DNA of 64,000 bases from Chloroflexota bacterium (lineage in GTDB: Bacteria; Chloroflexota; Dehalococcoidia; DSTF01; RBG-16-68-14): contig QIFC01000025.1 in NCBI GenBank assembly GCA_003228685.1, positions 23,186 through 87,185 of the forward strand. Direction: 5' to 3'. Of this stretch, positions 12,109 to 53,604 are shown piece after piece. Under the pieces are notes generated by a model. That model saw nothing but the letters and a program-made list of their open reading frames with translations, made no database searches and was not told the origin of the DNA. Both the position numbers and the translations under genes were made by a program. Each line of letters opens with the position of its first letter. Position 1 is the first letter of the stretch.

Positions 12109-13245
12109 ATGACAGGACTAGCAAGACTTGGAATGGCCGCGCTTGGCGCTGTTCTGGCCATTGCGATCGCGTTCGGCATAGCGACCACCCAGACATCGGC
12201 CGCCGACGCGGGCATAGGCATCGACTCTGCCTCAATGGCCGTAGGCGGCCAGGCCGACCTTGATGTCAGCGCGCTGAGCGTTGGCGCCCCCGGCCTCGGC
12301 GCATGGTCGGTCGACATTTCCTATGACGCGGCGATCGTCTCAGCGGTCGATTGCGCGGCCGAGCAGGGCGGCGTCTGCAACCCGGCATTCGCATCGAACA
12401 CGGTGCGGTTTACCGGAGCGAGCGCCGGCGGCCTTGAGGGCACGACCAAGCTCGCCGAGATCACCTTCTCGTGCGACGCTGAAGGCGTCAGCGCGCTCAC
12501 GCTCACTATCCAAGTGTTCGCGGATGCCACGATCGGCGCCCCGCAGCCACTGGACCTCACGATTCAGGACGGTCAGATCGCCTGTGGAGTGCAGGCGCCA
12601 ACAGCGACACCAGGCAGCCCAGGCGATGGCAGCGGCTGCGACCTGTTCGACTTCCAGGAAGACGCGCAGCAGGCCCTGATCTCCGACCCGAGCGACCCTC
12701 TGGGCCTCGACCCGGACAACGATGGTGTCGCCTGCGAGAACCTTCCGAGCTTGAACCCGGCGCTGAACTGCGACGATTTCGCGACTCAGGAAGAGGCGCA
12801 GGCTGTGTACGACGCGGACCCGTCCGATCCCTTCGACCTGGACGGTGACGGCGATGGCACCGCTTGTGAAAACCTCCCGAACCAGTCGGACGTGCTCGGC
12901 ACATCGCTGCCGCCTGCTGGTACCGGACCATTCGACGTGAACGGCGCGGGCCCCCAGGTCTGGCTGATCGCCGGCCTGATTGGCGCCGGCATTGCTTGGC
13001 TCAGCACCGGCGCGGCCGGCGCGGGCCTGGTCTTCATCGGCGGAGGCTCGTCCAGGGCGGCGAAACCAACGCGCGATGAGTCCGCCGCGGGCCCCTTCGA
13101 GTCGCGGAGCGAGGTCGTAACGCCAAGTGAAACGGACTATCAGCCCCAGATGCGCCCGACCGGTAGTAGCTGGTTGAGCAATGCTCGCGAGCAGATCTCC
13201 GGCGCTACGGTCGACGTGCCGGGCTTCCGCTCCCGCCGCGACTAA
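12109..13245 (+). CDS. Cohesin-like domain + two Excalibur domains, membrane-anchored with long C-terminal tail
   Basis: Signal/TM, SASMAVGGQADLDVSALSVGAPGLGAWSVDISYDAAIVSAVDC..., CDLFDFQEDAQQALISDPSDPLGLDPDNDGVACENLP and CDDFATQEEAQAVYDADPSDPFDLDGDGDGTACENLP, SLPPAGTG, TM. Start could also be 12094. Confidence 0.8.
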   Translation: MTGLARLGMAALGAVLAIAIAFGIATTQTSAADAGIGIDSASMAVGGQADLDVSALSVGAPGLGAWSVDISYDAAIVSAVDCAAEQGGVCNPAFASNTVRFTGASAGGLEGTTKLAEITFSCDAEGVSALTLTIQVFADATIGAPQPLDLTIQDGQIACGVQAPTATPGSPGDGSGCDLFDFQEDAQQALISDPSDPLGLDPDNDGVACENLPSLNPALNCDDFATQEEAQAVYDADPSDPFDLDGDGDGTACENLPNQSDVLGTSLPPAGTGPFDVNGAGPQVWLIAGLIGAGIAWLSTGAAGAGLVFIGGGSSRAAKPTRDESAAGPFESRSEVVTPSETDYQPQMRPTGSSWLSNAREQISGATVDVPGFRSRRD

Positions 13246-13270
13246 GCCGTCACGATAGGAACATTCGCGG

Positions 13271-13308
13271 GGAGGCCCCTACTGACCGGATGGTCAGTAG
13301 GGGCCTCC
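13271..13308 (+). terminator. Terminator hairpin
   Basis: GGAGGCCCCTACTGACC-GGAT-GGTCAGTAGGGGCCTCC, perfect 17-bp stem. Confidence 0.75.
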
Positions 13309-13382
13309 CTCGTTCTGTGGCGCGTCAGGTGGCAGGACAGGCCCAGGCGGGCTAGACTAGGCTCGATCCAGGAGGTGAGCAC

Positions 13383-14141
13383 ATGACCTACGAGACGCTA
13401 TCCATCCAGCAGGACGGCCCCGTCATGACGGTGCGCATGAACCGTCCCGAAAAGCGCAACGCTATCAACAACCAGATGCACCTAGACGTTCAAGAGGTCT
13501 GTCACAGGCTGGCCGACGATTTTGAGACGCGTGCCGTCATCCTGACAGGCGAGGGCGCCACGTTTTCGGCGGGCGCGGACACCAGCGAGTGGGGCAAGCC
13601 GGGTCCCGATAACGAGCTGGAACTGCGCCATCAGTCCGGCATCGGCAGCCGAACCTCGGCGGCGATCGAGAACCTCGACCAGATCACGATTGCCGCCGTT
13701 CACGGCTACGCCATCGGCGGCGGCGCTGTGCTCGCCTCTTGCTGCGATTTCCGCGTTGCCGGACCAAGCGCCTGGTTCTCCATCCCGGAGGTGGAGTTGG
13801 GCATTCCGCTGAGCTGGAATGCCCTCCCGCGGCTTGCCCGCGCTGTCGGCCACCAACGGGCGTTGGAGCTAACCGTCCTCTGCGAGCGCATCACCGGGCA
13901 ACAGGCGTTCGAGTACGGCCTGGTTAGCCATCTGTCGGAGGACGGGGGAGAGCTGGAGTTGGCCAAAGAGCTGGCGCAGAAGGTGGTCTCTAAACCGGCC
14001 CTGCCGGTCGCGCTCACGAAGGCCTCAATGAAGGCGCTACGCCGCCAGACGGAGTCTGGCGAGGCATCTTACAGCGACCAGGATCTGCTGCTCTACAGCA
14101 GACTCATGCAGCAGCGTCGCAGAAGGCGGGAGGGAGAGTAG
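13383..14141 (+). CDS. Enoyl-CoA hydratase/isomerase
   Basis: MTYETLSIQQDGPVMTVRMNRPEKRNAINNQM..., GEGATFSAGADTSEW, AAVHGYAIGGGAVLASCCDFRVA crotonase motifs. Confidence 0.93.
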   Translation: MTYETLSIQQDGPVMTVRMNRPEKRNAINNQMHLDVQEVCHRLADDFETRAVILTGEGATFSAGADTSEWGKPGPDNELELRHQSGIGSRTSAAIENLDQITIAAVHGYAIGGGAVLASCCDFRVAGPSAWFSIPEVELGIPLSWNALPRLARAVGHQRALELTVLCERITGQQAFEYGLVSHLSEDGGELELAKELAQKVVSKPALPVALTKASMKALRRQTESGEASYSDQDLLLYSRLMQQRRRRREGE

Positions 14142-14203
14142 CGCTAGCCGACGCGGTTTGCACGTGTTCTGTGGTAGTTAATAGCTGACCTGTCCGGCTT
14201 CAG

Positions 14204-14494
14204 TTAGCCCTGGCCGTGATCGACCGTGTCGGGGCTCAGGTAGTGCTTCTCCGTGATGCCCATCTTGCGCATCGCCACCCCGGTGAGCATCTCTCGCGCG
14301 CAGCGGTTGGCGACGAGCAGCGTCACGTAGGTCGGGTCAACGAGCGGGTTAAGCTTGAGGAGTTCCATGCCGACGACGTTAGTTTCGGCGCAAAGGCGGC
14401 GCACCAGCGGGAACAGTTCGCGTGCGTAAGGCCGGAAGTTCGCCGACTTCGTCGTCTTGGATCGCAACCTCTTCCATATTCCGCCTGAAAGCAT
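14204..14494 (-). pseudogene. C-terminal remnant of a ureohydrolase (arginase/agmatinase family)
   Basis: NVVGMELLKLNPLVDPTYVTLLVANRCAREMLTGVAMRK resembles the ureohydrolase C-terminal region only; the rest of the enzyme is absent upstream. Confidence 0.55.
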
Positions 14495-14582
14495 CGGTGA
14501 AACGCAGGAGATGACAGTACTTGAAGGCGGCGGGTCTAGAGGCCTTGGCTCGCAGCGCGCAGTGAGGCTGCAAGAAGGTATG

Positions 14583-14658
14583 TGGTGGCCCCAACGGGGT
14601 ACGATCCCGTGTTTCCGGCTTGAAAGGCCAGCGTCCTAGTCCACTAGACGATGGGGCC
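14583..14658 (-). tRNA. tRNA-Glu (anticodon TTC), CCA encoded
   Basis: Reverse strand GGCCCCATCGTCTAGTGGACTAGGACGCTGGCCTTTCAAGCCGGAAACACGGGATCGTACCCCGTTGGGGCCACCA; anticodon loop CTTTCAA. Confidence 0.95.
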
Positions 14659-14705
14659 GCGAACGGACGGCAGTATACCACGCTGCCTTTGTAGGAACTC
14701 GGCGG

Positions 14706-16061
14706 CTACGCGGCTGCCTCGCGTCGACGATCGAGCGTTGCGCGCACGCGGTCGATGCAGGTCCAGATGCCGCCGGCCGCCGCAATGAAGAACAGCGGAT
14801 ACAGCGGTACGTGATACCGAGGCTCGCCTAAGAACAACACGTGAAACAGCGTCCAGATCACGAGGACGTTCACGAGCAGCCAGCGATTCGCGTCGCGTCG
14901 GAACCAGAAGATGGCGGACCCAATCGCGACAACGATCAGGGCGTAATAGGAGATATCCAGCGTGTAGCGCAGGGCCGCCTGTATCCACTCCGGCTCGAGA
15001 GGCGTTGCGCCCAGTGTGTTCAGCCAGGGGATCACTGTGGAATCAGAGCGATAGAGGTGGTAGATCTTGCGGCCTGCCAACTCGACTTCATGGACGGGAT
15101 GCGTCAGCGCGTATCCGATCGCGAGCTTGGTGTACTCGCGATAGCCCAACACTTCCCAATCAGGCCGGTAGGGCGACTCCCACATGCGAAAGCCGCCCAC
15201 GTCGTCGTCGGTCCACTTTGTCGTGCCGATCGAGTCTTCGTTGTGGCCGACGCGCAGCGCTGCGCCTGAGTTCGTCGAGATCGGGACGAAGGCGTGCAGC
15301 TCCACGGCGTTGCGGATCGTCCACGGCGAAATGATCGCGACCGCCGCGATGGCGGCGATCGCGGTCGACAGCGCCGCCTGCCTCCAGCCCACGATCGCTA
15401 TCCAGTAGAGCGCGGCTATCGGCAGCAGCAGCGCGCCCTGCCCGCGCGTGAGGGCCGCCATGCCCGTCAGCAGTCCGAAGACGGCCACGGCGCGCCAGCC
15501 ATTGGACGCTGAGGGCGAGTAGGTGACCAGCAGCCAGAGCGCGGCGACGAACATCAGCCCGAACAGCGGCTCGGGAAACAGCAGTGGAGTGCCGGCGATC
15601 ACGTTTGGGAAGATCGCGAACAGTCCTGCCGCTACAATCCCGGCCCTGACATCGAAGATCCGCCGGCCCAGCGCGAACACGAACGGAATGGTCAGCGCTC
15701 CCAGCACGGCGTTGAGCACCTGTGCCGTCGAGATCCCCACGCCGAACACCTTGAACAGCGCGCCCAGGGCGAACGGATATCCGGGAGGCCAGAACGCCGT
15801 AGGCGCGCCCGGCCCCGGGATCTCCCAGAGTTCGTTTCGCGATGCCACGAAGCCTGCGCCCTGCGCGATGTTGATCCCCACCACGTAGTACCAGTGCGGG
15901 TCTCCTCCCAATGGGATGGTGTCCGTGTAGAACACCCAGGCGAGGCGCAGTGCAAAGCCTAGTAGCGTAAGCCCGCCGACCCCCAACGCCAGCGAAGACA
16001 CGCGAAATTCGGCGACCCGCCATTGAGGCCTGCTAATCGCTGGGATCGAGAGCGCTCGCAC
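14706..16061 (-). CDS. Glycosyltransferase family 39/ArnT-like integral membrane protein
   Basis: Multiple TM segments, GGDPHWYYVVGINIAQGAGF, FWPPGYPFALGALFKVFG; start set at GTG 16061 to avoid the overlap with the neighbouring methyltransferase. Confidence 0.75.
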   Translation of the reverse strand: MRALSIPAISRPQWRVAEFRVSSLALGVGGLTLLGFALRLAWVFYTDTIPLGGDPHWYYVVGINIAQGAGFVASRNELWEIPGPGAPTAFWPPGYPFALGALFKVFGVGISTAQVLNAVLGALTIPFVFALGRRIFDVRAGIVAAGLFAIFPNVIAGTPLLFPEPLFGLMFVAALWLLVTYSPSASNGWRAVAVFGLLTGMAALTRGQGALLLPIAALYWIAIVGWRQAALSTAIAAIAAVAIISPWTIRNAVELHAFVPISTNSGAALRVGHNEDSIGTTKWTDDDVGGFRMWESPYRPDWEVLGYREYTKLAIGYALTHPVHEVELAGRKIYHLYRSDSTVIPWLNTLGATPLEPEWIQAALRYTLDISYYALIVVAIGSAIFWFRRDANRWLLVNVLVIWTLFHVLFLGEPRYHVPLYPLFFIAAAGGIWTCIDRVRATLDRRREAAA

Positions 16062-16075
16062 TGCCCGTCTGTGTG

Positions 16076-17041
16076 CTAGGCCCGGAGCGCTTCCGGGATG
16101 ACGCTCTCTGGCGAGCCGGGCTTGCGGGCCACGGTTGGCCTGCGGGCCACGGCGTAGAGATGAGCCCACGGCTCGAACAGGGGCACCTTGCCCAACACGA
16201 TCATGGCTGGGTGCAGCGCCCGCAGGCCGTTGCGCAGGAACGTCCGGTGGTCGTAGTAGTAGTTGATCAGCCTATTGAGCACGTACTTCATCGAAAGCTT
16301 CTTGCCGTGCTCGACCTCCAAGAGTTCGATCTCGAAGCCCGCACTCTCCAGCGCGTGCCGCAAGCTGTCCTGACTGAAGAACGAGACATGCTCCACGTTG
16401 CGATAGCCGAACCAGCGCCGCCCCATTACTCGCGCGACGAAGCCATCTGCCGCCGGTGTCGTTACCATCAGGACGCCGCCCGGCCTGACGATGCGGAACA
16501 GCTCTGCGCAGAGCGCGTCCGGGTTGGGGTCGTGTTCGATCGTTTGGAAGATTGTGACGGCGTCGAACGCGGCCGCGGGCGCCTCCAGTCCGTACAGGCT
16601 GCCGACAGTCACGTCGAGTCCGAGGTTGCCGCGGGCGTGTGCCGCGGGTACGGGCGACAGGTCCACGCCCGAAACGTCGTAGCCACGCGTGCGTGCGGCG
16701 TCCAAGAAGAACCCGGCGCCGCAGCCAACGTCCAGCAGCCGGCCTTCCGGCTGGATCCGCTGCAGTTCATCGAGCTTCGGCTCGAAGTACGCCCGATAGG
16801 ACTCCTCATCCTCCAGGCAGGCGCTGAAGAACGGGTGGACGGTCTCCTCGTTGATCTCGATCATCGTGTCCAAGGTAGGCATGGGGCTGAGGGCTCGCAG
16901 ACCGCAATCCTCGCATTCGACGACGGTCCGTTGCTTGGCATCGAGGAAGAGCTGCTGCCGCCTGCTCTGGCAGAGGCAGCAGCCTTCGGTGGCTGTGGTT
17001 GCCTGGGCGGCTTGCTCCGCCGGCCGAACGATCGTTGTCAA
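16076..17041 (-). CDS. SAM-dependent methyltransferase with N-terminal zinc-ribbon
   Basis: CCLCQSRRQQLFLDAKQRTVVECEDCGL; GRLLDVGCGAGFFLDAARTRGYDVSGVDLSP; FQTIEHDPNP. Confidence 0.88.
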   Translation of the reverse strand: MTTIVRPAEQAAQATTATEGCCLCQSRRQQLFLDAKQRTVVECEDCGLRALSPMPTLDTMIEINEETVHPFFSACLEDEESYRAYFEPKLDELQRIQPEGRLLDVGCGAGFFLDAARTRGYDVSGVDLSPVPAAHARGNLGLDVTVGSLYGLEAPAAAFDAVTIFQTIEHDPNPDALCAELFRIVRPGGVLMVTTPAADGFVARVMGRRWFGYRNVEHVSFFSQDSLRHALESAGFEIELLEVEHGKKLSMKYVLNRLINYYYDHRTFLRNGLRALHPAMIVLGKVPLFEPWAHLYAVARRPTVARKPGSPESVIPEALRA

Positions 17042-17086
17042 CTCAGCTACCTCCTTGCAGGCTGGCCATGCTCAGTTGCCCCGTTG

Positions 17087-17551
17087 CTATTCCGCACGTG
17101 GCACGATCTCGTAACGGACCTCGAAGTCGGGGTTGAGGTTGATCATTTCGAGGATACGTTCCAATTCGTCGCGCTCCCAGTTCACGTCCTCGAACGTAGC
17201 GGGAGAGATGCACATCCGCTGGTGGCCGATGCCAAGCCTGCCGAGGCGCGCGCCTCGCAGGTCGGAGCCGGTGAGGACGGCGCGGTGCATGCTGGTGTTG
17301 CGCAGATCCGCGCCGCGCAGGTCGCATCCGCGCATGTCGGACGAGTTGAGCCGCGCATCGCGGAAGTCGCACTCTCGCAGGTTGGCGCCCGCCAGCCGCG
17401 CACCCTGAAGCCGGGCGCCGCGCAGGTCGAGGCCCTGGAGGTCGGCTTCTCTCAGGTCGAGCGAGATATCCTCGTGCTCTTTGGTGAACGCGTTGAGCGT
17501 TTCCACCCCGCTGCGCACCAACTCCATGTGCTTGGCGTCTGCCATAAGCAC
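17087..17551 (-). CDS. Pentapeptide-repeat protein
   Basis: DLREADLQGLDLRGARLQGARLAGANLRECDFRDARLNSSDMRGCDLRGADLRNTSM A(D/N)LxX repeats. Confidence 0.85.
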   Translation of the reverse strand: MLMADAKHMELVRSGVETLNAFTKEHEDISLDLREADLQGLDLRGARLQGARLAGANLRECDFRDARLNSSDMRGCDLRGADLRNTSMHRAVLTGSDLRGARLGRLGIGHQRMCISPATFEDVNWERDELERILEMINLNPDFEVRYEIVPRAE

Positions 17552-17605
17552 TGATTATGGCAGACGCCAGCGCTCAAAGGAAAGGGCGTGCCGTTGGAGG
17601 TGGCC

Positions 17606-17950
17606 TTACTCGTGCTCGCCGGAGCTTCGTAGCCGCTGCATGATCGAGACCGCCCAGACGGCGACCGCGGCGATCAGCGCAACCTGCAGCCCTCTGCGGA
17701 AACGCGAGCGCTTCCGTGGCGTGGCCGGCTCATCCTCGTCGCCCGGGAGGTCCTTCCAAGCCTTCAGCATGATCTCGGCCACGTCCGCGGCCTCGCTCTC
17801 GCCCTGGACGACGTCCTGGACATTCGTGGGGTCCTGCCAGATTGCGTCCGTCTTCTCTTGGCCCAGCCTGTCCTCCAAGCGCCCGCGTAGCTCCGTTGCT
17901 ACCTGATCGGGCGTCTTCGCCGGCGTCTTGCCATTACCAGATGACATCAC
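17606..17950 (-). CDS. Hypothetical membrane-anchored protein
   Basis: 114 aa ORF with C-terminal TM (GLQVALIAAVAVWAVSIMQ). Confidence 0.5.
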   Translation of the reverse strand: MMSSGNGKTPAKTPDQVATELRGRLEDRLGQEKTDAIWQDPTNVQDVVQGESEAADVAEIMLKAWKDLPGDEDEPATPRKRSRFRRGLQVALIAAVAVWAVSIMQRLRSSGEHE

Positions 17951-18316
17951 AGAGTCCTTTCCGCATAGAGTCCTCTCCTGGGGACGGATGGGTGGAGCAC
18001 CAGTGTAGCAGAAGATGCTACCGCCGCGGTGTAGGGGTCTGGGGCCTGAGAGAGGCTAGCCCTCCGCGACGAGCAACACTGGGAGACGAGAGCGCCAGAC
18101 CACTTCCTCAGCCACCTTTCCCGAAGCATCAACGTCAGGGTTTACCCCTACCCCCAATCTGGAGGGCCCTTACAAGCTGGATTGGTGCAATTCATTTCGG
18201 GTATCCAGAGTATAGTTACATAACGTTCTGGGGCATCTGGCAAGATTCAAAACCACCTACGCGCGCCGAATTTCGGCGCGTTTGAGGCCTCAGGCGCAGT
18301 TGCAAGGAGGCAAGAG

Positions 18317-20201: not shown

Positions 20202-20768
20202 GTGCGAGGAACAGACGTGAAGAACAGCCGTAGTAGCCGTAGGGGCGGGTCTTCAGACCCGCCCGCCGCCCGCCGGGGCGGTTGGTCAGCAGTTGCGAAG
20301 CAACTGCAAGGCTGCCCGTTAGGGCAGGCCCGGGGCCAGACGCTACTAGAGTTCGCTCTGGTAGCGCCGCTGCTGCTCTTCTTCGTGCTCGCCCTGGTCG
20401 ACTTCGGCATCGCGGTCGACCGGCGGCTTGTGCTCGACCACGCGGTTCGTGAGGGCGCCCGGTACGCCAGCGTGGGAAGCAACTCGATCACGGGAGACCG
20501 CTACGAATTGGATGTTCAGGAATATGCTTTTGACCAGGCTCAAGGAGTGCCGGATGTGCCCGAAGATTTCCTCGTCTGTTACCGCCCGATAGATCCGGCG
20601 AATCCGCTCAGCGAGCAGGCGGTAGACGTGAGCATCGATTACGATTACCAATTCGTGACGCCGATTGGCGCCCTGGCGAGCCTCGGGCCGTCAATCAACC
20701 TGTTTGCCAAAGCCTCAGCAAGAGTGGAACAGCCGCTTTCAGATGTCGAGGACTGTCTTGATGGGTAG
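20202..20768 (+). CDS. TadE-like pseudopilin with palindromic insert in its N-terminal coding region
   Basis: RGQTLLEFALVAPLLLFFVLALVDFGIAVDRRLVLDHAVREGARYAS; GTG starts at 20202/20217 preceded by AAAGGAG. Confidence 0.8.
   Translation: MRGTDVKNSRSSRRGGSSDPPAARRGGWSAVAKQLQGCPLGQARGQTLLEFALVAPLLLFFVLALVDFGIAVDRRLVLDHAVREGARYASVGSNSITGDRYELDVQEYAFDQAQGVPDVPEDFLVCYRPIDPANPLSEQAVDVSIDYDYQFVTPIGALASLGPSINLFAKASARVEQPLSDVEDCLDG
20243..20327. repeat. Three consecutive hairpins inside the tadE-like 5' coding region
   Basis: GGGCGGGTCT-TC-AGACCCGCCC (20243-20264), GCAGTTGC-GAA-GCAACTGC (20289-20307), CTGCCC-GTTA-GGGCAG (20312-20327). Confidence 0.8.
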
Positions 20769-22107
20769 TTCCAGCCTCAGCGAACGCGGCCAGGCGATCA
20801 TCCTGTTCGTCGGAGTGTTCACCGTGATCCTCGTGATGGCGGCTATCGTCGTCGACTTCGGCCTGTGGTTCGCCGAGCGCCGCTCCGCGCAGCGGGGCGC
20901 GGACCTCGCCGCCGCCGCTGGCGCGCTAGACCTGCCGTTGTCGCCCGGCCTGGCGTTCACGAACGCCTGCGCCTGGGCTGAGGACAACGGGTTCGATTAC
21001 ACCGATGACGACGACGTTGAGGTCTTCGTTAGCGTCTTTGAACGAGATGGCTTTGGCTCAGATGAAGACTGCGAGTTGGTAGGGGAGACTCCACCTGCTC
21101 CTCCATGCGGCTCACAGTGCGACACAGTGCGCGTGAGGGTCACCAAGGGCGCACCGCGGCTGTTCACGGCGTTGCCGTTCGGCATCGATGACTTCGAGAT
21201 AGGAGCGGTCGCTGCGGCTGGCATCACGTATGGAGGTAGCGGCGGCATTGGAGGGACCGGCCCTGACCAAACGGTTCTCTTGGTAGACGCCCAAGGTCGC
21301 ATGGGCAAGGGATTCGGTGGTGAGAACTGTTCGAGCGTTCCCCAATCATGCCCGATAGTTAACGAGCGGTCTGCCGCCAGGGCCTTTGTAGACACATTGC
21401 TAGGTTTGGCTGGCAATGGTGAAGTCGGATACGCCGCTTACAACAACTGTTACGGACCGACGGTAGGCCCCCAAGCTACCTGTATCCACGACAACGCCCC
21501 GAACGATGCTGTGATAGAGCCGACCAGGGACAGCGCAGCCCTCCATGTGGCTATCGATAACACCGTCGCATATCAGCGACAGGCAGCAAACATCTGCACA
21601 GGGCTCTGGCAGGCATCGGAACTCTTCCGGAATCCGGCCGTATCTCGCCAGGTTCTAGTGCTCATGTCCGGCGGGGACAATCTAGACTATCCGACCTTCA
21701 ACGAGTCGCGTCCTCCGCCCGCCGGATGCTTTCCTTCATACCCAATTGCTCTCGGATCTGCCCCCTTGCCATGCAGCGCTTCGAGACCGGCCGAGAGCGA
21801 GTTGGATTACCTGACGCTAGAGATGGCCAGGTATCTCAAGGACGACCTGGGCGTCGAGATATACGTTATCGCTCTCAACCCCTGCCGATGGGCAGCAGAT
21901 CGCACCTTGCCTCCCGTTGACAATCCCTGGCCAGCGGACTGCGGCCAGGTGGGCAACGCCCAACACGACAACATCGCAGACCAGCGGCTGCTCATGTGCA
22001 TCGCGACTTCGCCGGAACACTACCAGCGCGTCAACAACGTCGCGGAACTGCCCAACGTAATTGAAGAAATCGCGTCCGAGATCGTCAGCCGAAGTCTGCT
22101 GCAGTAG
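20761..22107 (+). CDS. TadG-like protein with von Willebrand A-like region
   Basis: SERGQAIILFVGVFTVILVMAAIVVDFGLWFAERRSAQRGADLAAAAGAL; later vWA-like QVLVLMSGGDNLDYP; start overlaps the tadE-like stop. Confidence 0.8.
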   Translation: MGSSSLSERGQAIILFVGVFTVILVMAAIVVDFGLWFAERRSAQRGADLAAAAGALDLPLSPGLAFTNACAWAEDNGFDYTDDDDVEVFVSVFERDGFGSDEDCELVGETPPAPPCGSQCDTVRVRVTKGAPRLFTALPFGIDDFEIGAVAAAGITYGGSGGIGGTGPDQTVLLVDAQGRMGKGFGGENCSSVPQSCPIVNERSAARAFVDTLLGLAGNGEVGYAAYNNCYGPTVGPQATCIHDNAPNDAVIEPTRDSAALHVAIDNTVAYQRQAANICTGLWQASELFRNPAVSRQVLVLMSGGDNLDYPTFNESRPPPAGCFPSYPIALGSAPLPCSASRPAESELDYLTLEMARYLKDDLGVEIYVIALNPCRWAADRTLPPVDNPWPADCGQVGNAQHDNIADQRLLMCIATSPEHYQRVNNVAELPNVIEEIASEIVSRSLLQ

Positions 22108-41515: not shown

Positions 41516-44134
41516 TTACCCCGTGCTGGAAGGTTCTGGCGCGCGTCTCCACCAAGCGTGCAACGCTTGCTGCCAGAGCGTCCAGCGCTCTCGGCCCAGC
41601 AGGATCGCCACGCCCGCCGTCATGACGAACGTCCCTGCCAAGGCCAGGATCGCCCAACTTGGCAGCAGCTGTGCAGCATTGAACAGGTAGCGCAACGCGT
41701 CCAGGACGATGAAGGCCGTGGCCGTCGACAGCAACCAGACCCAACGCTGTACCAGCGCGACCCCCAGGACGAAGAGCCCTTCACCAAGCAGCAGCAGCGC
41801 GTACGGCCAACCGCCTTCATTCCATGACTGCGCCAGGCTCGGCCCCATTAACACGGCAGCGCCCAGTGCTTGCGCTGGCTGGAGAAACGCTTCGACGCCA
41901 TCCGGCAGGTTTCGGAGTCGGAACGCCAGTGACGCGCCTGCCAGCAAGTAGACGCCCAGCGGCGCTGTGTAGGCTTGCACGTTCTCCGGCCGGAAGTGAC
42001 CGATATAAAGCAGGAGCGCGATTATCAGAAGCGCTGAAGCTCCCGCCACGAACTCCATGCGCTGCTCGAGCCACGCTGCGACGGCCATCAGCACTCCCAG
42101 CAGCAGTACAGCGGCCGCCGATGTTTGGTAGAGTGCCGTTTCCTCGAAGGAGTGTGCGCCGATGAAGCCTTCGCTATCTGCGAGGATCGCGAGCCGCACC
42201 CAACCCGTGATGGGCGCTGCCACCAGATAGGCGAACGCGAGCGCGAGCAACACCGGCGACCACGTCTCTTCGCGTTGTCGCAGTACTGCGTAGGCTGCGA
42301 AGAGCACCGCTCCGATGCCCGCGACCGCGAGCGGAAGGTAGAAATCGGCCGGCTCATAATACCGCCACGCGGCCAGAAGGCAGACGTAGCCGTACGCAGC
42401 CGGGACCGCCAGCGCGAACGGCTCCCGTTCCCATAGCGCGAGAGCAAGCGAGACCGCCGCGTACACGGCGAGCAGCACCGTCACCTGCCCTTCTCCTTCC
42501 ACGGCGGACAGGAGCACGAAGAGGCTCATGCCGGCGGCGATGGCGTAGACGTGGACTCGGTAGTCCGGCCACCACCAGCGCATGGTTACCGCTACTGCGG
42601 CAATGCCTAGCGACAGTCCGAAGAACGGGAGCGCCAAGTCTGAGGCGCCCGCTCCTTCTGCGGCGGGTAGGCTCGACAGGAGGTAGAAGTATCCGATGCC
42701 TAACACGAGGCCGGCCGCATAGATGAACGCGGCGGCTATTGTTCCGCGCAGATCATCTCGATCCTCCTCGAACGCGGCTGGGACATTGAGTTGCTTTGCG
42801 AAGGAGAGGCGCGCCGCAATCAGGTAGAACGCAGCGGCGCTGAAGTAAACGCCCGCGCCGATGCGCGGGGCGTCACCGTATAGTGCTGTAAACAGCAGCC
42901 AGGACGCCGTAACCGCTCCCACTGCCATCCAGTCTGCGTATACCTGGCCGAACCAGCGAAGCCTCGAACGCCAACCGGCCGCCGCGTAGAGCCATCCGAC
43001 GATCGCCACGGCCACGCCGTACCATTCTTCGCCAACGTCCAGCGCGAAGACTATCGTGACGGCTGCACCAGCGGTCACCGCCAGTGCCGAGATTGTCAAG
43101 ATCGGAGCGGCTTGTGGAAGAGAGCGCCGGGCCCAGAGAACCTGCGTCCAGTAGAACAGAGCGGCCAGCGCTGCCGTGGTTGGCAGGAACCATCGCGTTC
43201 TCAGTTCGAAGCCGTCACCGGCTTCGACTGCTTGCGTCATCGCCAGAGCGATGAGCGCTGCGGGCGCCACGACGAGGTGCGCCGATGCCAAGCAGATCGG
43301 TCCGAATACGTCGCGGACACGCCGCGATGGCGCCAGCGACGGAGTCGTTTGCAGGAGTCCCGCAGCGATGTAACTCCCCGGATAGGCCTCCGGCGCCGCA
43401 TCGGCCAGCATCATCGCGGCGCCAAGGCCGCTCAACGCCGCGATGACCATCGCCGCCGGATACCAGCGGCCCACGCCTAAGAAGGACACCGCTCCGTAGA
43501 AGATCGCGCTCGTGAGGGACCCCGCGAGCCAGAGGCCCGTCGGGTCGATTTCGTCCTCCGACAGATAGAGGCCGTAGGCGCCGGCAAACGTGATCGGCAC
43601 CATCAGCGAGCCTACCGCGAAGAACACGACGCCTGCCTGCTGGACGCGCGGGATGCGCAGGCAGAGCAGCCCCGCCGCGACGAAGAGGAGCGGGGCCAGT
43701 GCCAACAGGGCCATTCTCACGTTCTCGCCAACAGATTCGCCCGAAGCGCTCACGAACACGAGCGAAGCGATTACGATCAGGAACGCGCCTAGGTACAGGA
43801 GGAAGTTCGCTTGCTGTTCCGCCAACCAGCCCGGACCTTCGCGTTCAGCGGGCGCGGCTCGCTCTCTGGCTGGAGCCGCCTTGGCTGGGGCCGCTGTGCG
43901 CGTGTCGCTGAGAGCTTCCCTGTAGCGCCGGCTTAGGCGGAGGTAGAGTTCGTCATCAATCTCGCCCGTCTGGTGGAGGCGCAGCAGTTCGTTGAGAAGG
44001 AAGGCTAATCCCTGGCGCTCTTGCAGGCGGCTGCCGGCGAGGCCCACACCGCACCTGCTGCAGTACCGATTTGCGACCGGACTGCTTTCCCCACAGGTCA
44101 GGCAGTACCAGAGTGGCTCTGGCGTCTCCACCAT
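41516..44134 (-). CDS. Large polytopic membrane protein with N-terminal zinc-ribbon (DUF2157-like)
   Basis: YCLTCGESSPVANRYCSRCGVGL, followed by many hydrophobic segments; start uncertain (44134 or 44152). Confidence 0.65.
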   Translation of the reverse strand: MVETPEPLWYCLTCGESSPVANRYCSRCGVGLAGSRLQERQGLAFLLNELLRLHQTGEIDDELYLRLSRRYREALSDTRTAAPAKAAPARERAAPAEREGPGWLAEQQANFLLYLGAFLIVIASLVFVSASGESVGENVRMALLALAPLLFVAAGLLCLRIPRVQQAGVVFFAVGSLMVPITFAGAYGLYLSEDEIDPTGLWLAGSLTSAIFYGAVSFLGVGRWYPAAMVIAALSGLGAAMMLADAAPEAYPGSYIAAGLLQTTPSLAPSRRVRDVFGPICLASAHLVVAPAALIALAMTQAVEAGDGFELRTRWFLPTTAALAALFYWTQVLWARRSLPQAAPILTISALAVTAGAAVTIVFALDVGEEWYGVAVAIVGWLYAAAGWRSRLRWFGQVYADWMAVGAVTASWLLFTALYGDAPRIGAGVYFSAAAFYLIAARLSFAKQLNVPAAFEEDRDDLRGTIAAAFIYAAGLVLGIGYFYLLSSLPAAEGAGASDLALPFFGLSLGIAAVAVTMRWWWPDYRVHVYAIAAGMSLFVLLSAVEGEGQVTVLLAVYAAVSLALALWEREPFALAVPAAYGYVCLLAAWRYYEPADFYLPLAVAGIGAVLFAAYAVLRQREETWSPVLLALAFAYLVAAPITGWVRLAILADSEGFIGAHSFEETALYQTSAAAVLLLGVLMAVAAWLEQRMEFVAGASALLIIALLLYIGHFRPENVQAYTAPLGVYLLAGASLAFRLRNLPDGVEAFLQPAQALGAAVLMGPSLAQSWNEGGWPYALLLLGEGLFVLGVALVQRWVWLLSTATAFIVLDALRYLFNAAQLLPSWAILALAGTFVMTAGVAILLGRERWTLWQQALHAWWRRAPEPSSTG

Positions 44135-44255
44135 CGCTACCTCCCGACCCACAGTATCACAGTGTGGAGCAAGCGCCCATCAGGCATTCATTCGTCTGTC
44201 GCGGAGGCGGAACTGGCTGCCCCCTACCGTTACGTCTGTGCCATAATGCTTCGCG

Positions 44256-46079: not shown

Positions 46080-46226
46080 TCCTGTTTGCGTTGTTACCCC
46101 CTGCGTCGACAGCGTGCCGTGCGGTCGTTTCGAGAAGTGTGGCGATGCCGCAGTGAGACCAGTTTTCAGCGCAAGTTTGACCCAAGCAGGCCAGTCTGTT
46201 CAAATGTGATCAGATGCCTATCGAGT

Positions 46227-46322
46227 GGAGACGTCGACAGCGACTTTGCGCTCACGAGTGTGGACGCGGCGCTGATTCTACAGATCACGGCGGGCCTCAT
46301 TGGCGAGGGCGCCCTGAGTTGA
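46227..46322 (+). pseudogene. Orphan single dockerin repeat (remnant)
   Basis: GDVDSDFALTSVDAALILQITAGLIGEGALS* parallels ADVNLDGEVNSVDALLIQQFVAGLIP of the 47444 protein; no credible upstream coding frame. Confidence 0.6.
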
Positions 46323-46386: not shown

Positions 46387-47022
46387 ATGAAGGGAATCAA
46401 AGGACTAAGGATGGGGCTGGTAGGGATAGCGGCCATTGCGGCGCTGCTGATCGGAGGAGCAATGCTGGGCGGCACCGTATTCGCGCAGGGTGGTGACACC
46501 GTGGGCATCTCGGATGGCGCCGCCGAAACCGGCGAGGTTGACGTCGTGACGGTTCAGGCGACCGACATCAGCGCCCCCGGCCTCGGCGCGTGGACGATGG
46601 ACATCCACTACGACAACAGCGTGATCAGCGCGACGGGCTGCACGCCGGAGCAGGGTGGCGTTTGCAACCCGAACTTCGAGGATGGCGTTGTCCGGCTCAC
46701 CGGCGCGACTGCCGGGGGCCTAGAGGGTGACTCCACGCTGGGTACGATTGAGTTCGAGTGTGGCGACGACGCCGGCACGAGCGAACTAGACATCCAGATA
46801 CAGGTCTTCGCGGACGCGACGCTCGGCGACCCGACGGACATCAATCCGACGGTCGTTGACGGCACGTTCACGTGCTCGGAAGAAGTGGTGGTGACCCAGC
46901 CTCCGGCTGCAGGTACTGGATTCGATTCGAACGGCACCAGCTACGGTTGGCTGATCGCCGTGCTAGCAGTGCTGGGCGCCAGCACGCTGGCAGTTGCCGC
47001 GATTCGAAGGCGCGCACTATAA
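46387..47022 (+). CDS. Small cohesin-like, membrane-anchored protein
   Basis: Signal peptide; DISAPGLGAWTMDIHYDNSVISATGCTPEQGGVCNPNFEDGVVRLTGATAGGLEGDSTLGTIEFEC...; C-term TGFDSNGTSYGWLIAVLAVLGASTLAVAAIRRRAL. Confidence 0.8.
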   Translation: MKGIKGLRMGLVGIAAIAALLIGGAMLGGTVFAQGGDTVGISDGAAETGEVDVVTVQATDISAPGLGAWTMDIHYDNSVISATGCTPEQGGVCNPNFEDGVVRLTGATAGGLEGDSTLGTIEFECGDDAGTSELDIQIQVFADATLGDPTDINPTVVDGTFTCSEEVVVTQPPAAGTGFDSNGTSYGWLIAVLAVLGASTLAVAAIRRRAL

Positions 47023-47054: not shown

Positions 47055-47070
47055 GCTAACGGAACGATAT

Positions 47071-47100
47071 GGAGTCCCGCGGCAATCGCCGCGGGACTCC
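47071..47100 (+). terminator. Terminator hairpin
   Basis: GGAGTCCCGCGGC-AATC-GCCGCGGGACTCC, perfect 13-bp stem downstream of cohesin gene. Confidence 0.75.
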
Positions 47101-47280
47101 TGCTATCTCTGCTCACTTGCGCACGCGAAATAGCGCCAGACTGCGGCTCTGAAAGGTGCCGGCGGCCATTCAGCGGCCACTGGCAATCGCGCACTGCTAG
47201 CGCGGCTTCAGAGGCGCCGTGAACCGCGTGGAATGGCGCCAAACTAAGGATAATTAGCTTGACTCTAAGCATCTTGCCCC

Positions 47281-47310
47281 CCAAACTGTGAAGGCGATGC
47301 TACAGTTTGG
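47281..47310. promoter_or_regulatory. Inverted repeat upstream of the giant dockerin protein
   Basis: CCAAACTGT - 12 nt - ACAGTTTGG, perfect 9-bp arms; TTGACA follows ~10 nt later. Confidence 0.4.
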
Positions 47311-47443
47311 CCTTAAAAAGGTTGACACTAAGCTGCACCTATGGTCAGAATGTCGCAATACGCTGCGCACCTGAGCGAGAATTGAGTCTTGGCGTGGCTC
47401 AGAAATCTCGCCATAACGGGACTCACGGAGGAGGGAGACTAAG

Positions 47444-50400
47444 ATGACAGGAAGTCTAACGTGGGGTGCGCTGCGCCCTATCGCAATTCGGTTTGCATTC
47501 TTGGCAATTGTCGCGATCGCCCTGGTGGGCGTTCTGGTCGCGATACCGAACAGCGCCTCGGCCGCGACGACGGTCACCGTCAACAGCACGGGAGACCTTT
47601 CCGATGCGGACCTTGGTATAAACGCTACGTGCGAGACGGTCCTCGGCAACGGCGTCTGCACGCTGCGGGCCGCGATCGAGACCGCTAACGGCGGCTTCGC
47701 GGACACGATTTTGTTCGCTCTGCCCGGCGGCAGCGGCACCATCAACTTGGGCGCCGCGGCCCTCCCCTTCATCAAGGTAGACCTCGCGATCGACGCGAGT
47801 GGAAACACGGTCATCATTGATGGAACAGGAGTAGTTGGTGGGGCCAGTGGGTTCGAAGTCCTTGCCAGCCTTCCCGGCCAGAACTTCAGCCTCGTGAGCG
47901 GCACGGGCGACCTGACGATCCGCGACATCACCGGCACGAGCACGGACAAGATCTTCGGCCATGCCGCTGTGAAGGTCTGCGGCCGGACGGCCTGCGCCGG
48001 CGGCGCGGCAGACATCAACCTCGGTACCATCCTTGTCGATGACATTACGATTACCGGCGTTACGGGCGCGCGCGGCGTCCACATCGTCGCCAACAACCTA
48101 TCTGACGCGACCGTCTCTAACAGCTTCATCAGGTCCTCTGCGGATGGAGTGATGCTGAAGGCCACCGGAACCAGTCCAGCGGTACCTCCGCTGGCAACCG
48201 ACAACGCGATGGCCGTGACCGGCAGCGACATTGAGTCGACCGGCGACGACGCGGTCGACATGGAGGTCTGCACGATTGGTGACGTCGCCTGTGACCTGGC
48301 CAGCAAGATATCGATTACCATCGATGGAAACACCAACTTGGAGGGTGACACGGTTGGCAATGGCGTGGAAGTGGACGTGGATATTGACGAAGCCACGGCG
48401 GGCAGCTCGATCAACGTCACCGTCGACGACAACACCGGCGGGATCAGGGGCTACCACGGCGTCAAAATCGACCTCGACTTCGACGACCCTGACACCGGCG
48501 ACCTGAGCGCCAGCGTCTCTGTCAGCAGGACCCAGGGCGCGATCGTCGGCGCGGGCGACGAAGGCATCGAACTGGAAGTTGACATTGCTGGCGCCGACCT
48601 GTCACCAGCTCCCACGCACAACCACAGCACAATACTGATTGACGATAACGTCGGTGGCATCACTGGCGAGCATGAAGCCGTTGAAGTGGACTCCAACGTC
48701 AGTGCCGGCGACCACAATAGCAACACGGTGAGCGCCTCTCGAAACGGTAATATCTCCAGCGTTCAAGATGAGGCCGTTGACTTCGATCTCGACGCCAAGG
48801 ATGGCAACAATAACACGAACACGGCAAATATAGATGACAACGGCATGCTTACCAATGCCACCGCCGGCGACCAGGGCGTGGTGGTGCGCAGCTTCGCCGG
48901 CGGCGCCAGTAACAACAACGTGAGTATCGTCAAGATCAACGGAAATGATGGAATTGTCGCTACGGGCGATGCAGTAGACGTCGGCAACTTCGCCGGCTCC
49001 GACGCCATCGGGGCCAGCGCGGCGGACGGCAACACGGCCGATACAGAGGTCAACAACAACGGCGACATTAAGGGCGACAGGGACGGTAGCGGTGCCGGGA
49101 ACGGCATCGCTATCTTGAACCAGGCGGGTTCCCTTGGCACGGCCTGCGCATGCGGTGGCGACAACAACAAGAGCCTGGTTGACGCCAGCAACAACGGCGA
49201 CGTTGAGGGCGGCGACGACGCGATCGACATCGAAAGTGAGGCCGGCGCGCGGGAAGACGGCGCACTGAACAACAGCAGTGACGTCTCGCTCAATCTGAAC
49301 GGCCACATCAAAGGTGACACGAATGGCGACGGCACCGGTAACGGCGTGCATGTGGAAAGCCGGGCCGGCACCGAGGACGCTGACGGCTCCGCCGGTAACG
49401 GCAACAGCAGTACCGTCACACTCACGGGAACCGGTGCGCATGATATCAGCGGTGGCAACAAGGCGGTCGATATCACGAGCGAGGCCGGCGCGGAAATGGG
49501 TGGAGACGGGAACAACAACTCGAGCGACGTCTCCGTCACCGGCATGCAGGACATCTTTACGTTCGCCACGGCGAGCGACGACGACGCCGTCCGCATTCTG
49601 AGCCAGGCCGGCGCGTTCGGCGGCGTTGGCGACAACAACCACGCCACCTCGGACGTGAGCGCCAACCGCAAGATCACGTCGCTGGCTGGGGATGCCATCG
49701 AGATGGACGTCCTCGCCGGTGGCAGCGCCGCGGCGAGCGGCGCGACCACCAACAGCACGGACGCCAGCGTGACGAGCAACACTGGTGACATCACGGCCGG
49801 CGGCGGAGAAGCTGTGGACATCGGGCTGTTGGTCTGCTGCGTCAGCTCCAACACGAACAGCGTAGATATCTCTCAGAACCAGGACCTCATAGGCTCGCTG
49901 AACGGGATCTTCATCACCGGCGAAGACACACCATCGGCAGGGTTCTTCCCAGCCGGTGTGTGCTGCAGCACGAATACGTTCAACATCACGGATAACGCCG
50001 GCGTCATCACCGGAACCGCCGGTGACGGCCTTCATGTGAACGTCTTCGGCGTCGGCCAGTTGGGTCCGAATAGCCCGAGCCTGACGAACCTCACGGTCAG
50101 TGGCAACACGATCGCCAACAGCGGCACCCGCGGCATCGAGGTTGAGAACATGGTTGGGGTTCCGAGCGACCTCGGCGCGGACTTCAGCGGCAGCGTGATC
50201 AGCGGCAACACGGTCCGCGATAACACCGGCGCAGGCATCTTCCTAGACAGCGTGAGCGGCGCCACGATCGGGCCGGACAATATTATCGACGACAATGCCG
50301 GCGCGACCGGCCTTCACATTGAGGAGAGTACCGGCGAAGCAGACAGAAACACGATCACGCAGAACAGCATGTTCGAAAACGGTCTCCTCGGTATCGACCT

Positions 50401-51871
50401 TGACGATGACAACCCCCCGACCCTCGATAGCCCCGATGGCGTGGGCTGCAAGAACGCGCAGGCGCCCAGCGCGAGCGTGAGCGTCACGGCAGACGATGAC
50501 CCGAACACGTGCATCCAGCCCCCGAACGGCGTGAGTTCGATCGACAAGCTCCTCACGGGCGCGGCCTGCGCGGACTGCCGCGTGGAGATCTTCGTCGCGA
50601 ACGCCGTCCTGGACGACCAGACGGGCCCGGGCGACATTCAGTACGGTGAGGGCGAGACTTACTTGGGCTTCGTGACGGCGAGCGGCGCAGGCGCCTGGAC
50701 GTACACCATCCCGTGCGGGCTGGGAGGCGAGTCCCTCACGATGACGGCCACCGGCAAATTCGGCAACACATCCGAGTTCGGTCCGAACTTCGGACCGCTA
50801 CCGGCCAACTCGTGTGACACGCCGACGCCGACGGACACAGATACGCCGACACCGACGAACACGCCAGGCGGTCCGACGAACACGCCGACGAACACGCCGA
50901 CGCCTGTGGACACGGCAGAGTTCACCCTTTGCAAGGACACGAACCCGGAGAGCTCCGGCAAGAGCTTCGACTTCGACACGGACATCCGTGGATTCAGTGA
51001 CCCGGACCTGGAAGACGATGAGTGCGCCACACGGAGGGGCGTGGACCCGGACGACTACGAGATTACTGAGAACCCGCCGGCAGGCTGGGAACTGGACGAC
51101 GTCGACTGTGACGGAATCCCCGGGAGCCGCTGGGACGTAGACCTGGACGCCCGGCTGTTGGAGATCGAGCTGAGGGCTGGCGACGACGTGGAGTGTACGT
51201 TCACGAACGTTGACGTAGACCCAATGACCTCATCGATCAGCATCACGAAGGAAACGGACCCCTCCGGGAGCACGCAGGAGTTTGACTTTGAGAGCGACGT
51301 AACTGGGCTCGACGACTTCGACGTGGCCGATGGCGAGACCGAAGAGGCGACCGACCTGGCCGCAGGCACGTACGAGATAATCGAGCTGGACGTGGACGGC
51401 TGGAACCTGATCGAAATCGACTGCACGGGCACGGACGATGCGAATATCGACGTGGACCTGAATGACAATACTGTGACGGTGGAGCTGGAAGAGGGCGAGG
51501 ACGTGGAGTGCTCGTTCACGAACGAACAGAAGCCGACGCCGACCGCGACGCCGATGTCCCCGACGGACACGCCGACGCCGACGGATACGCCGGTACCACC
51601 GACATCGACGAACACGCCGGTGCCACCGACGAGCACGGCGACGAACACGCCTGTCATACCGGCGACGCCGGGGAACACGATCGGCGACGTGAACAAGAAC
51701 GGCGTGGTGAACGCGATTGACGCCCAGTTGATCAAGCAGGCAGAAGCTGGGTTCATTACGCTCGCCAACCCGAAGAATGCGGATGTGAATCTGGATGGCG
51801 AGGTGAACAGCGTAGACGCCCTCCTGATTCAGCAATTTGTGGCGGGGTTAATCCCGAGTCTGCCCGTCTAG
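47444..51871 (+). CDS. Giant secreted beta-helix surface protein with CSLREA-like N-terminus, two prealbumin-like repeats, Thr/Pro-rich linkers and C-terminal dockerin
   Basis: CTLRAAIETANGG; repeated NNNxSxVxxxxxGDxxGGDDAxDIxSEAGA units; ISITKETDPSGSTQEFDFESDVTG...; TPTPTDTDTPTPTNTP; GDVNKNGVVNAIDAQLIKQAEAGFITLANPKNADVNLDGEVNSVDALLIQQFVAGLI. Confidence 0.85.
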   Translation: MTGSLTWGALRPIAIRFAFLAIVAIALVGVLVAIPNSASAATTVTVNSTGDLSDADLGINATCETVLGNGVCTLRAAIETANGGFADTILFALPGGSGTINLGAAALPFIKVDLAIDASGNTVIIDGTGVVGGASGFEVLASLPGQNFSLVSGTGDLTIRDITGTSTDKIFGHAAVKVCGRTACAGGAADINLGTILVDDITITGVTGARGVHIVANNLSDATVSNSFIRSSADGVMLKATGTSPAVPPLATDNAMAVTGSDIESTGDDAVDMEVCTIGDVACDLASKISITIDGNTNLEGDTVGNGVEVDVDIDEATAGSSINVTVDDNTGGIRGYHGVKIDLDFDDPDTGDLSASVSVSRTQGAIVGAGDEGIELEVDIAGADLSPAPTHNHSTILIDDNVGGITGEHEAVEVDSNVSAGDHNSNTVSASRNGNISSVQDEAVDFDLDAKDGNNNTNTANIDDNGMLTNATAGDQGVVVRSFAGGASNNNVSIVKINGNDGIVATGDAVDVGNFAGSDAIGASAADGNTADTEVNNNGDIKGDRDGSGAGNGIAILNQAGSLGTACACGGDNNKSLVDASNNGDVEGGDDAIDIESEAGAREDGALNNSSDVSLNLNGHIKGDTNGDGTGNGVHVESRAGTEDADGSAGNGNSSTVTLTGTGAHDISGGNKAVDITSEAGAEMGGDGNNNSSDVSVTGMQDIFTFATASDDDAVRILSQAGAFGGVGDNNHATSDVSANRKITSLAGDAIEMDVLAGGSAAASGATTNSTDASVTSNTGDITAGGGEAVDIGLLVCCVSSNTNSVDISQNQDLIGSLNGIFITGEDTPSAGFFPAGVCCSTNTFNITDNAGVITGTAGDGLHVNVFGVGQLGPNSPSLTNLTVSGNTIANSGTRGIEVENMVGVPSDLGADFSGSVISGNTVRDNTGAGIFLDSVSGATIGPDNIIDDNAGATGLHIEESTGEADRNTITQNSMFENGLLGIDLDDDNPPTLDSPDGVGCKNAQAPSASVSVTADDDPNTCIQPPNGVSSIDKLLTGAACADCRVEIFVANAVLDDQTGPGDIQYGEGETYLGFVTASGAGAWTYTIPCGLGGESLTMTATGKFGNTSEFGPNFGPLPANSCDTPTPTDTDTPTPTNTPGGPTNTPTNTPTPVDTAEFTLCKDTNPESSGKSFDFDTDIRGFSDPDLEDDECATRRGVDPDDYEITENPPAGWELDDVDCDGIPGSRWDVDLDARLLEIELRAGDDVECTFTNVDVDPMTSSISITKETDPSGSTQEFDFESDVTGLDDFDVADGETEEATDLAAGTYEIIELDVDGWNLIEIDCTGTDDANIDVDLNDNTVTVELEEGEDVECSFTNEQKPTPTATPMSPTDTPTPTDTPVPPTSTNTPVPPTSTATNTPVIPATPGNTIGDVNKNGVVNAIDAQLIKQAEAGFITLANPKNADVNLDGEVNSVDALLIQQFVAGLIPSLPV

Positions 51872-51913
51872 AGAAGCGGGTAGAGGTAGCGAGCGAACGG
51901 AGGATCGCAAAGC

Positions 51914-52540
51914 ATGGTAAAGAAGATTGGAATACTGGCAGGAATAGGCGCAGCGCTGGTCGCAGTGCTGGTGCTGGCAGGATCAGCGTTTGCGCAGGAC
52001 GGCGGCGTGAGCGTATCGGATGGGTCGGGCGACGGCGATACCGTCACGGTGGACGTGACGGACGTCGGCGGCGAGGGCCTGGGTGCATGGACGATCGACG
52101 TCAGCTACGATAGCGACGTGATCTCGGCGTCGGGCTGCACTGCGGAGCAGGGTGGAGTTTGCAACGAGAACTTCACGGACAACTCCGTGCGGATCACAGG
52201 AGCAAGCGCGGGCGGCCTGTCTGGTGACACCACTCTGGGCAGCATCACGTTCGACTGCGCCGACGACGAAGGCTCGAGCGATCTGACGATCGCGCTGTCG
52301 GTGTTCGCAGATGCGACGATTGGTGACCCGCAGGACTTGAGCCCGTCGATCTCCAACGGCACGTTCGACTGTGCTGAGGCGGAAGAGCCGGACCCGACAT
52401 CCACGGTGGTGCTTCCGCCCACGGGTACTGGCGTAGCAGGCAGCGGCAGCAGCAGCGTTAGCTGGCTGGTAGCGCTGTTCGCGGTCATCGGCCTTGGCGT
52501 TCTGGCAACCGGCTACGGCGTCGCGCGATCGCGCGCATAA
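51914..52540 (+). CDS. Small cohesin-like protein with LPPTG-like C-terminal anchor
   Basis: DVGGEGLGAWTIDVSYDSDVISASGCTAEQGGVCNENFTDNSVRITGASAGGLSGDTTLGSITFDC...; VVLPPTGTGVAGSGSSSVSWLVALFAVIGLGVLATGYGVARSRA. Confidence 0.82.
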   Translation: MVKKIGILAGIGAALVAVLVLAGSAFAQDGGVSVSDGSGDGDTVTVDVTDVGGEGLGAWTIDVSYDSDVISASGCTAEQGGVCNENFTDNSVRITGASAGGLSGDTTLGSITFDCADDEGSSDLTIALSVFADATIGDPQDLSPSISNGTFDCAEAEEPDPTSTVVLPPTGTGVAGSGSSSVSWLVALFAVIGLGVLATGYGVARSRA

Positions 52541-52583
52541 GCGCAGCCGAGTGCCCTAGGGCACGAGCCTAGTACGGAAACTC

Positions 52584-52611
52584 GAAGGAGCCCCCATTAG
52601 GGGGCTCCTTC
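52584..52611 (+). terminator. Terminator hairpin
   Basis: GAAGGAGCCCCC-ATTA-GGGGGCTCCTTC, perfect 12-bp stem. Confidence 0.75.
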
Positions 52612-52764
52612 CTTCTGCTTAGGAGAACTGGCGAAAGATAAGGGTTTTCCCCGCCTTGTTGTAAGGGTGTTCCCTAATGGAGACGCCCACCCGTTCACCG
52701 TACGATCCGTGTATCGCAAGCAACAGCGCGTTCCTGAAGGATCGCGGGAAAGGTTTGGTTGCAG

Positions 52765-53604
52765 ATGAACGGACAGAAGGGACTCGCACTTCGCGCTCTC
52801 GCCGGCGTCGTGGCGGTGATGGTGATCGTGATCGGCCTTGCCGGCACCGCGTCCGCGCAGGAGGAGTTAATCACGATCGATTCGGCCTCTGCCGCGGTAG
52901 GTGAGCTGGCTGCCGTGAACGTCGACTCGCTCAATATTCCCGAGCCCGGCTTGGGTGCGTGGACTGTGGACGTCACCTACGATCCGACGGTGGTTTCCGC
53001 CATCGCCTGCATCCCGGAGAACGGGAGCGTCTGCAACCCGGCCTTCGATAGCCAGACCGTGCGCATCACGGGTGCCAGCGCCGGCGGCGTCGTCGGCGAC
53101 GCGACGCTCGGGGCGCTCTCGTTCGGCTGCGACGTCGAAGGCACCAGCCCGCTCACGCTCAACGTTGCGCTGCTGGTCGATGCGACGATCGGCGACCCGC
53201 AGGAGATCACTGCTGACACGCAGAACGGCAGCATCACGTGCACGGCGGGAGGCACCACGGACCCCACGCCGACACCGAGCGGCAGCGATGACGTGTTCGA
53301 TTGCTCAGACTTCCTGTTCCAAGACGTGGCGCAGGCGGTCTTGGACGCCGACCCGAGCGATCCGCACAATCTGGACCCGGAGAACAACGGTATCGCCTGT
53401 GAAGATCTTCCGGACCGCGACGGAGACACCGATCCTGTCATCCTGCCGCCGACCGGCGTGGGTGTCGGTGGCGGCGGAGCGACCCCGGGCGCCATCGCTC
53501 GCTGGCTGATGGCCGCCTTCGCGGGGCTTGGCCTGGCGACCGCTGGAGGCATCGGACTGCTGCGCTGGCGAGCCGAGCAGCTGCGCCCGGTCCGTCGACG
53601 ATAG
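52765..53604 (+). CDS. Cohesin-like + Excalibur domain protein with LPPTG-like C-terminal anchor
   Basis: GLGAWTVDVTYDPTVVSAIACIPENGSVCNPAFDSQTVRITGASAGGVVGDATLGALSFGC...; CSDFLFQDVAQAVLDADPSDPHNLDPENNGIACEDLP; VILPPTGVG + TM + basic tail. Confidence 0.82.
   Translation: MNGQKGLALRALAGVVAVMVIVIGLAGTASAQEELITIDSASAAVGELAAVNVDSLNIPEPGLGAWTVDVTYDPTVVSAIACIPENGSVCNPAFDSQTVRITGASAGGVVGDATLGALSFGCDVEGTSPLTLNVALLVDATIGDPQEITADTQNGSITCTAGGTTDPTPTPSGSDDVFDCSDFLFQDVAQAVLDADPSDPHNLDPENNGIACEDLPDRDGDTDPVILPPTGVGVGGGGATPGAIARWLMAAFAGLGLATAGGIGLLRWRAEQLRPVRRR

Follow-up and report, generated by a model that had tools for sequence, protein, structure and literature searches.

What are four small cohesin-like proteins doing in a member of the Chloroflexota, and do they hold large secreted proteins at its surface? 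The question is raised by a 64-kb stretch of DNA (the window; contig QIFC01000025.1, positions 23,186 to 87,185) from Chloroflexota bacterium assembly GCA_003228685.1, a 3.53-Mb genome of 128 contigs that is 87% complete (G000). Its closest named relatives are the uncultured Chloroflexi metagenome-assembled genomes B76T1B5, B85T3L11, B45T1L10 and RBG_16_68_14. A first-pass annotation of the window suggested that large exoproteins may be docked onto a monoderm cell surface by small cohesins anchored there. The proposal is supported by the predicted cohesin fold, a docked structural model, module counts, gene pairs, sortases and the lack of a detectable Omp85. Quite probably, then, the locus is part of a genome-wide cohesin–dockerin surface display in a monoderm Chloroflexota, in which anchored cohesins would capture dockerin-bearing exoproteins.

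The four cohesin-like genes, all on the + strand, begin and end where they were first annotated: P0001 (12109..13245), P0002 (46387..47022, with an ATG at 46387), P0003 (51914..52540) and P0004 (52765..53604). Common to their products is a ~130-residue domain, hereafter class A, in which a GLGAW motif and four cysteines are invariant. P0002 exceeds the Pfam Cohesin (PF00963) cut-off of 24.1 bits (33.6 bits, E 5.4e-08); P0003 (E 6.2e-05), P0004 (E 2.1e-04) and P0001 (E 1.3e-03, 19.3 bits) fall below it. P0001 is the top match of the genome to the class-A profile, at 188 bits. A single-sequence phmmer search with P0003 gave one match only, a chance one to a flagellin. The class-A profile matched 12 sequences of the Protein Data Bank (PDB) at E<=1, all of them cohesins or scaffoldins (best E 3.7e-4). 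The AlphaFold2 (AF2) model of the cohesin has a predicted local distance difference test score (pLDDT) of about 95 in the domain, and its 40 best Foldseek matches are cohesins (6kgc_A at E 5e-11; template modelling score up to 0.75, normalised to the target), among them non-cellulosomal cohesins of Archaeoglobus fulgidus and Clostridium perfringens. The profile search and the structural comparison, which together provide the fold check that the annotation had called for, thus both point to the nine-strand jelly-roll fold of cohesins.

All four proteins had been described as secreted and membrane-anchored. An N-terminal signal peptide and a C-terminal hydrophobic transmembrane stretch are present in each, but for P0003 and P0004 a membrane anchor alone is not the right description. 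Both carry a canonical sortase sorting signal, in which LPPTG (at about 52412-52426 and about 53443-53457, respectively) is followed by the transmembrane stretch and a basic tail, and both are predicted from these features to be attached covalently to the wall by sortase. P0001 additionally contains Excalibur domains (33.6 bits), and P0004 has one weak Excalibur match below the Pfam cut-off. Related cohesins end in tails with LPDTG, LPSTG, LPDAG, LPSSG and similar motifs. The genome has six matches to the sortase family PF04203, three of them full-length and strong, and sortases occur in all 18 genomes of the order. No Omp85 homologue was found, consistent with a monoderm envelope.

Between P0002 and P0003 lies the candidate cargo. 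P0005 (47444..51871, + strand) is a secreted beta-helix protein of 1475 residues with prealbumin-like domains; it has a SpaA_4 match and weak Beta_helix and CSLREA matches. As annotated, it ends in a canonical double-repeat dockerin: Dockerin_1 matches residues 1414-1465 at 51.6 bits, with both repeats complete. This type-I dockerin (51680..51838, + strand; two calcium-loop repeats, residues 1413-1465) is modelled by AF2 at a pLDDT of 95-98, and is the strongest Dockerin_1 match genome-wide (58.7 bits). P0003 starts 42 nt downstream of P0005.

The annotation had suggested modelling each cohesin with this dockerin, and the prediction was run for P0003. The modelled chain consisted of the P0005 dockerin, a linker and the P0003 cohesin, which lie in the same frame, so that the window DNA could be read through three TAG codons; this is a modelling device only, and no real read-through is proposed. 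With an alignment of 52 sequences, made with MAFFT and including natural dockerin–cohesin proteins, AF2 returned a predicted template modelling score (pTM) of 0.79, with pLDDT above 90 over almost the whole of each domain and a disordered linker. By a simple estimate, this chain would score about 0.53-0.57 if the dockerin floated freely and about 0.78 if it were placed within about 2 Å, which suggests that the two domains are docked in the model.

Are these modules a local curiosity? A genome-wide count, another of the checks proposed, was made by profile searches of contigs and retrieved stretches. At E<=5e-4 the genome contains 62 matches to Dockerin_1 (PF00404); a lineage-specific profile finds 71 full dockerins, 63 of them C-terminal, and 62 of 64 dockerin open reading frames (ORFs) start with a hydrophobic segment. 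Across 63 aligned dockerins, the first and last calcium-ligand aspartates are near-invariant in both repeats, and L17-Q18 is present in both repeats in about 60; the conserved helix residues lie at loop positions 10/11 and 17/18. A cysteine is found in loop 1 in 50 of the 63, and one between the repeats in 50 of the 63, suggesting from sequence that the pair forms a disulfide. The dockerin of P0005 has neither cysteine, which may mark a sub-specificity. The cohesins fall into two homologous classes (hhalign 97%). Those of class A, of which there are 15, are mostly single-domain proteins that carry either an anchor or a dockerin, the latter being adaptors. Class B, with about 18 cohesins, occurs chiefly in scaffoldins with T/P-rich linkers, one of which (C7:49886-55405) has eight cohesin matches and LPDTG. 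Two or more cohesins, as required of a cellulosome scaffoldin, are found in this protein and in scaffoldins on contigs C18 and C51.

Both families also keep company in relatives. Cohesins and dockerins occur together in 16 of the 18 genomes of the order, and the remaining two lack both. Class A is limited to one family of the order, represented by G000 and five relatives, and in these six genomes the class-A counts (15, 14, 11, 9, 5 and 3) rank identically with the dockerin counts (62, 43, 40, 39, 28 and 4). Dockerins are rare in the phylum at large: at E<=1e-6 they were found in just nine of 251 sampled genomes, G000 included, and most of these have one to three. Within the retrieved stretches, a dockerin gene lies directly upstream of 9 of 40 class-A cohesin genes, against about 0.65 expected, some of the nine being orthologues. 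Such pairs occur in G000 (the window and contig C44), on two contigs of G015, and on contigs C99 of G014, C14 of G012 and C50 of G013, that is, in four of five sampled relatives. The order of the window cluster (cohesin, dockerin exoprotein, LPPTG cohesin, Excalibur cohesin) is conserved in G015.

Taken together, these findings are consistent with a mechanism in which single-domain GLGAW cohesins would be exported and fixed to the cell surface, either through an LPxTG-like sortase signal or through a transmembrane helix at the C-terminus. The anchored cohesins would then capture secreted exoproteins that have a two-repeat dockerin at their end, such as P0005, for which the partner is perhaps the product of the gene just downstream. 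Adaptors, which combine a cohesin with a dockerin, and the multi-cohesin LPxTG scaffoldins encoded elsewhere in the genome would add branches and further positions. The cargo would comprise beta-propellers, sulfotransferase-like proteins, subtilases, solute-binding and other surface proteins, and not plant-fibre enzymes. We infer the binding itself, its calcium dependence, the wall attachment and the specificity of cohesin–dockerin pairing.

Several points weigh against this account. Cohesin–dockerin binding is predicted by modelling, and the docking comes from one AF2 pair, run without a negative control and judged by scores, not coordinates. The training data of AF2 include cohesin–dockerin complexes. 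A canonical LPxTG signal is missing from P0001, which has LPPAG and a long C-terminal tail after the transmembrane stretch, and from P0002, in which a degenerate PPAAGTG precedes the transmembrane stretch and a basic tail. In the six genomes of the family, cohesin and dockerin counts also track assembly size (rho 0.88). Finally, the 62 dockerins may bind the class-B scaffoldins rather than class A.

The last of these points leads to the strongest alternative, in which class-A cohesins are stand-alone jelly-roll domains for adhesion or ligand binding at the surface, and dockerins bind class-B scaffoldins only. Class B does accompany dockerins in genomes that have no class A, and class A has an invariant motif and four cysteines of its own. 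Against this, class-A genes follow dockerin genes in pairs, class-A/dockerin adaptors exist, and class-A numbers track dockerin numbers; the confident AF2 docking, as a model, also argues for binding. A purely stand-alone role for class A is thus considered unlikely.

Multi-cohesin scaffoldins and adaptors, along with C-terminal dockerins by the dozen, recall the inventory of a cellulosome, and one weak match to an oligogalacturonate-lyase propeller was found. Could the cohesins then collect polysaccharide-degrading enzymes, as in a disguised cellulosome or degradosome of carbohydrate-active enzymes (CAZymes)? The Pfam domains of the dockerin proteins include beta-propellers (RCC1, FG-GAP, PD40), ASST-like (sulfotransferase-like) domains and subtilases, together with M23 peptidase, solute-binding, phosphoesterase, CAP and SpaA/SdrD domains. 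A cellulosome is expected to have at least one glycoside hydrolase with a dockerin; none is listed in the Pfam results for the 66 dockerin proteins, nine weak, single-member families not being displayed and the genome being 87% complete. The annotation had seen nothing cellulolytic in the window, and for dockerin cargo this description now extends genome-wide as far as the Pfam family lists of these 66 proteins show. A degradosome is already largely refuted and must be regarded as highly improbable. Two of the dockerin proteins resemble solute-binding proteins (SBP_bac_5 and Peripla_BP_6) and one an M23 peptidase, so that transport receptors and a wall enzyme may, judging by their domains, be docked instead of lipid-anchored.

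Two parts of the system as first drawn had to be given up. The product of P0006 (9595..11769, + strand) had been read as a protein with a degenerate dockerin. It is secreted, but it has no Pfam match; its C-terminal domain matches the NCBIfam flexitail family (NF041520) at 112 bits and is related to dockerins with a probability of 2.8% by hhalign; a degenerate dockerin is thereby ruled out, and P0006 is placed outside the system. Flexitail is a C-terminal domain with EF-hand-like repeats and has about 43 matches in the genome, one of them at G000:C38:14591-14929. Multi-cohesin proteins on contigs C45 and C51 end in a flexitail. In flexitail genes of the relative B76T1B5 (L069), the first repeat has the sequence DTNGDGVIDLANDI, which is a perfect loop of the EF-hand type; other copies carry the insert GPGAALPTDG in this loop. 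A distant relationship between flexitail and dockerin is possible, and profile comparison gives it no support. A role for the P0006 flexitail as another, diverged kind of docking module, with cohesin P0001 just downstream as its partner, is scarcely tenable: the domain is nearly restricted to the family that carries class-A cohesins, some relatives have the EF-hand-like repeats, and the P0006–P0001 pair is kept in G014, but the profiles do not match, the AF2 model of the flexitail (nine sequences) is unusable at a pLDDT of 48, the relative G011 has 16 flexitails with only three class-A cohesins and four dockerins, and P0006 has no counterpart beside the P0001 orthologue in G015 (L077), where both flanks align. 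The P0006 gene adjoins a tRNA-Arg gene (9092-9167).

The second part, an orphan dockerin at 46227 (P0007), proved to be a relic (46220..46322, + strand). It encodes one repeat only, the second half of a dockerin, and is a non-functional remnant that keeps the 3' end of a dockerin gene since lost: 98 bp are 77.6% identical in DNA to the 3' end of a relative's 1032-residue dockerin ORF (L128). The relic is absent from the matching spot in G014 (L066), where the flanks align.

Elsewhere in the window, a protein resembling TadE/G of Flp pili is encoded at 20665-22107, and the window may accordingly hold a Tad-type pilus locus. Two long ORFs, at 41516-44152 (- strand, 878 residues) and 16073-17554 (+ strand, 493 residues), have no Pfam match at E<=1e-5.

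How does this arrangement compare with known systems? Cohesins and dockerins outside cellulosomes are already known; A. fulgidus and C. perfringens have few such modules per genome. The cohesin fold occurs outside cellulosomes in both (PDB 2xdh for A. fulgidus; 2jh2, 2vo8 and 2w1n for C. perfringens), without a large anchored array in either, and those of C. perfringens are joined to glycoside hydrolases. Single sortase-anchored cohesins are likewise known. In Ruminococcus flavefaciens, ScaE is a single cohesin anchored covalently by sortase through LPXTG, which captures dockerin proteins including a peptidase (PMC5301203). The likeness lies in a single cohesin with a sortase signal and in surface capture of dockerin proteins, the latter predicted here from sequence and model. 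ScaE, however, is a type III cohesin for the X-dockerin modules of a cellulosome (PMC5301203), whereas the present cohesins are a cysteine-bearing GLGAW class of about 15 paralogues, with type-I-like dockerins and no glycoside-hydrolase cargo found. In the mucinolysome of Limousia, cSca5 is also a single cohesin with a sortase motif, and it has been put forward as the anchor for dockerin proteins and for scaffoldins with several cohesins (PMC12997984); the evidence for both systems is largely predicted structure, but cSca5 belongs to Firmicute gut bacteria with a mucin-degrading CAZyme cargo.

A survey of cellulosomes in 305,693 genomes required dockerin-bearing glycohydrolases and excluded metagenome assemblies (PMC11557425), and could therefore not detect systems of this kind; the present genome, in which no dockerin-glycohydrolase was found, falls outside its definition. 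No such system was found described for Chloroflexota or Dehalococcoidia in the literature, of which our coverage is incomplete. Within that coverage, what appears new is the size of the system without glycoside-hydrolase cargo found, its occurrence in Chloroflexota and its own cohesin class.

The locus bears on the role of cohesins and dockerins outside cellulosomes, combining cellulosome-like size with no glycoside-hydrolase cargo found, an adjacent pair of cargo and anchor genes, and clear anchoring signals. With these features, two small recombinant domains, a cohesin and a dockerin, would be enough to put that role to the test, and a new and apparently uniform cohesin–dockerin class would serve as a useful orthogonal building block. 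For the lineage itself, the chances are about even that a large share of the secretome, some 60-70 proteins with beta-propellers, proteases and solute-binding proteins among them, is arranged by calcium-dependent docking on sortase-anchored cohesins, adaptors and scaffoldins, in what would be a general-purpose, exchangeable display rather than one specialised for polymer degradation.

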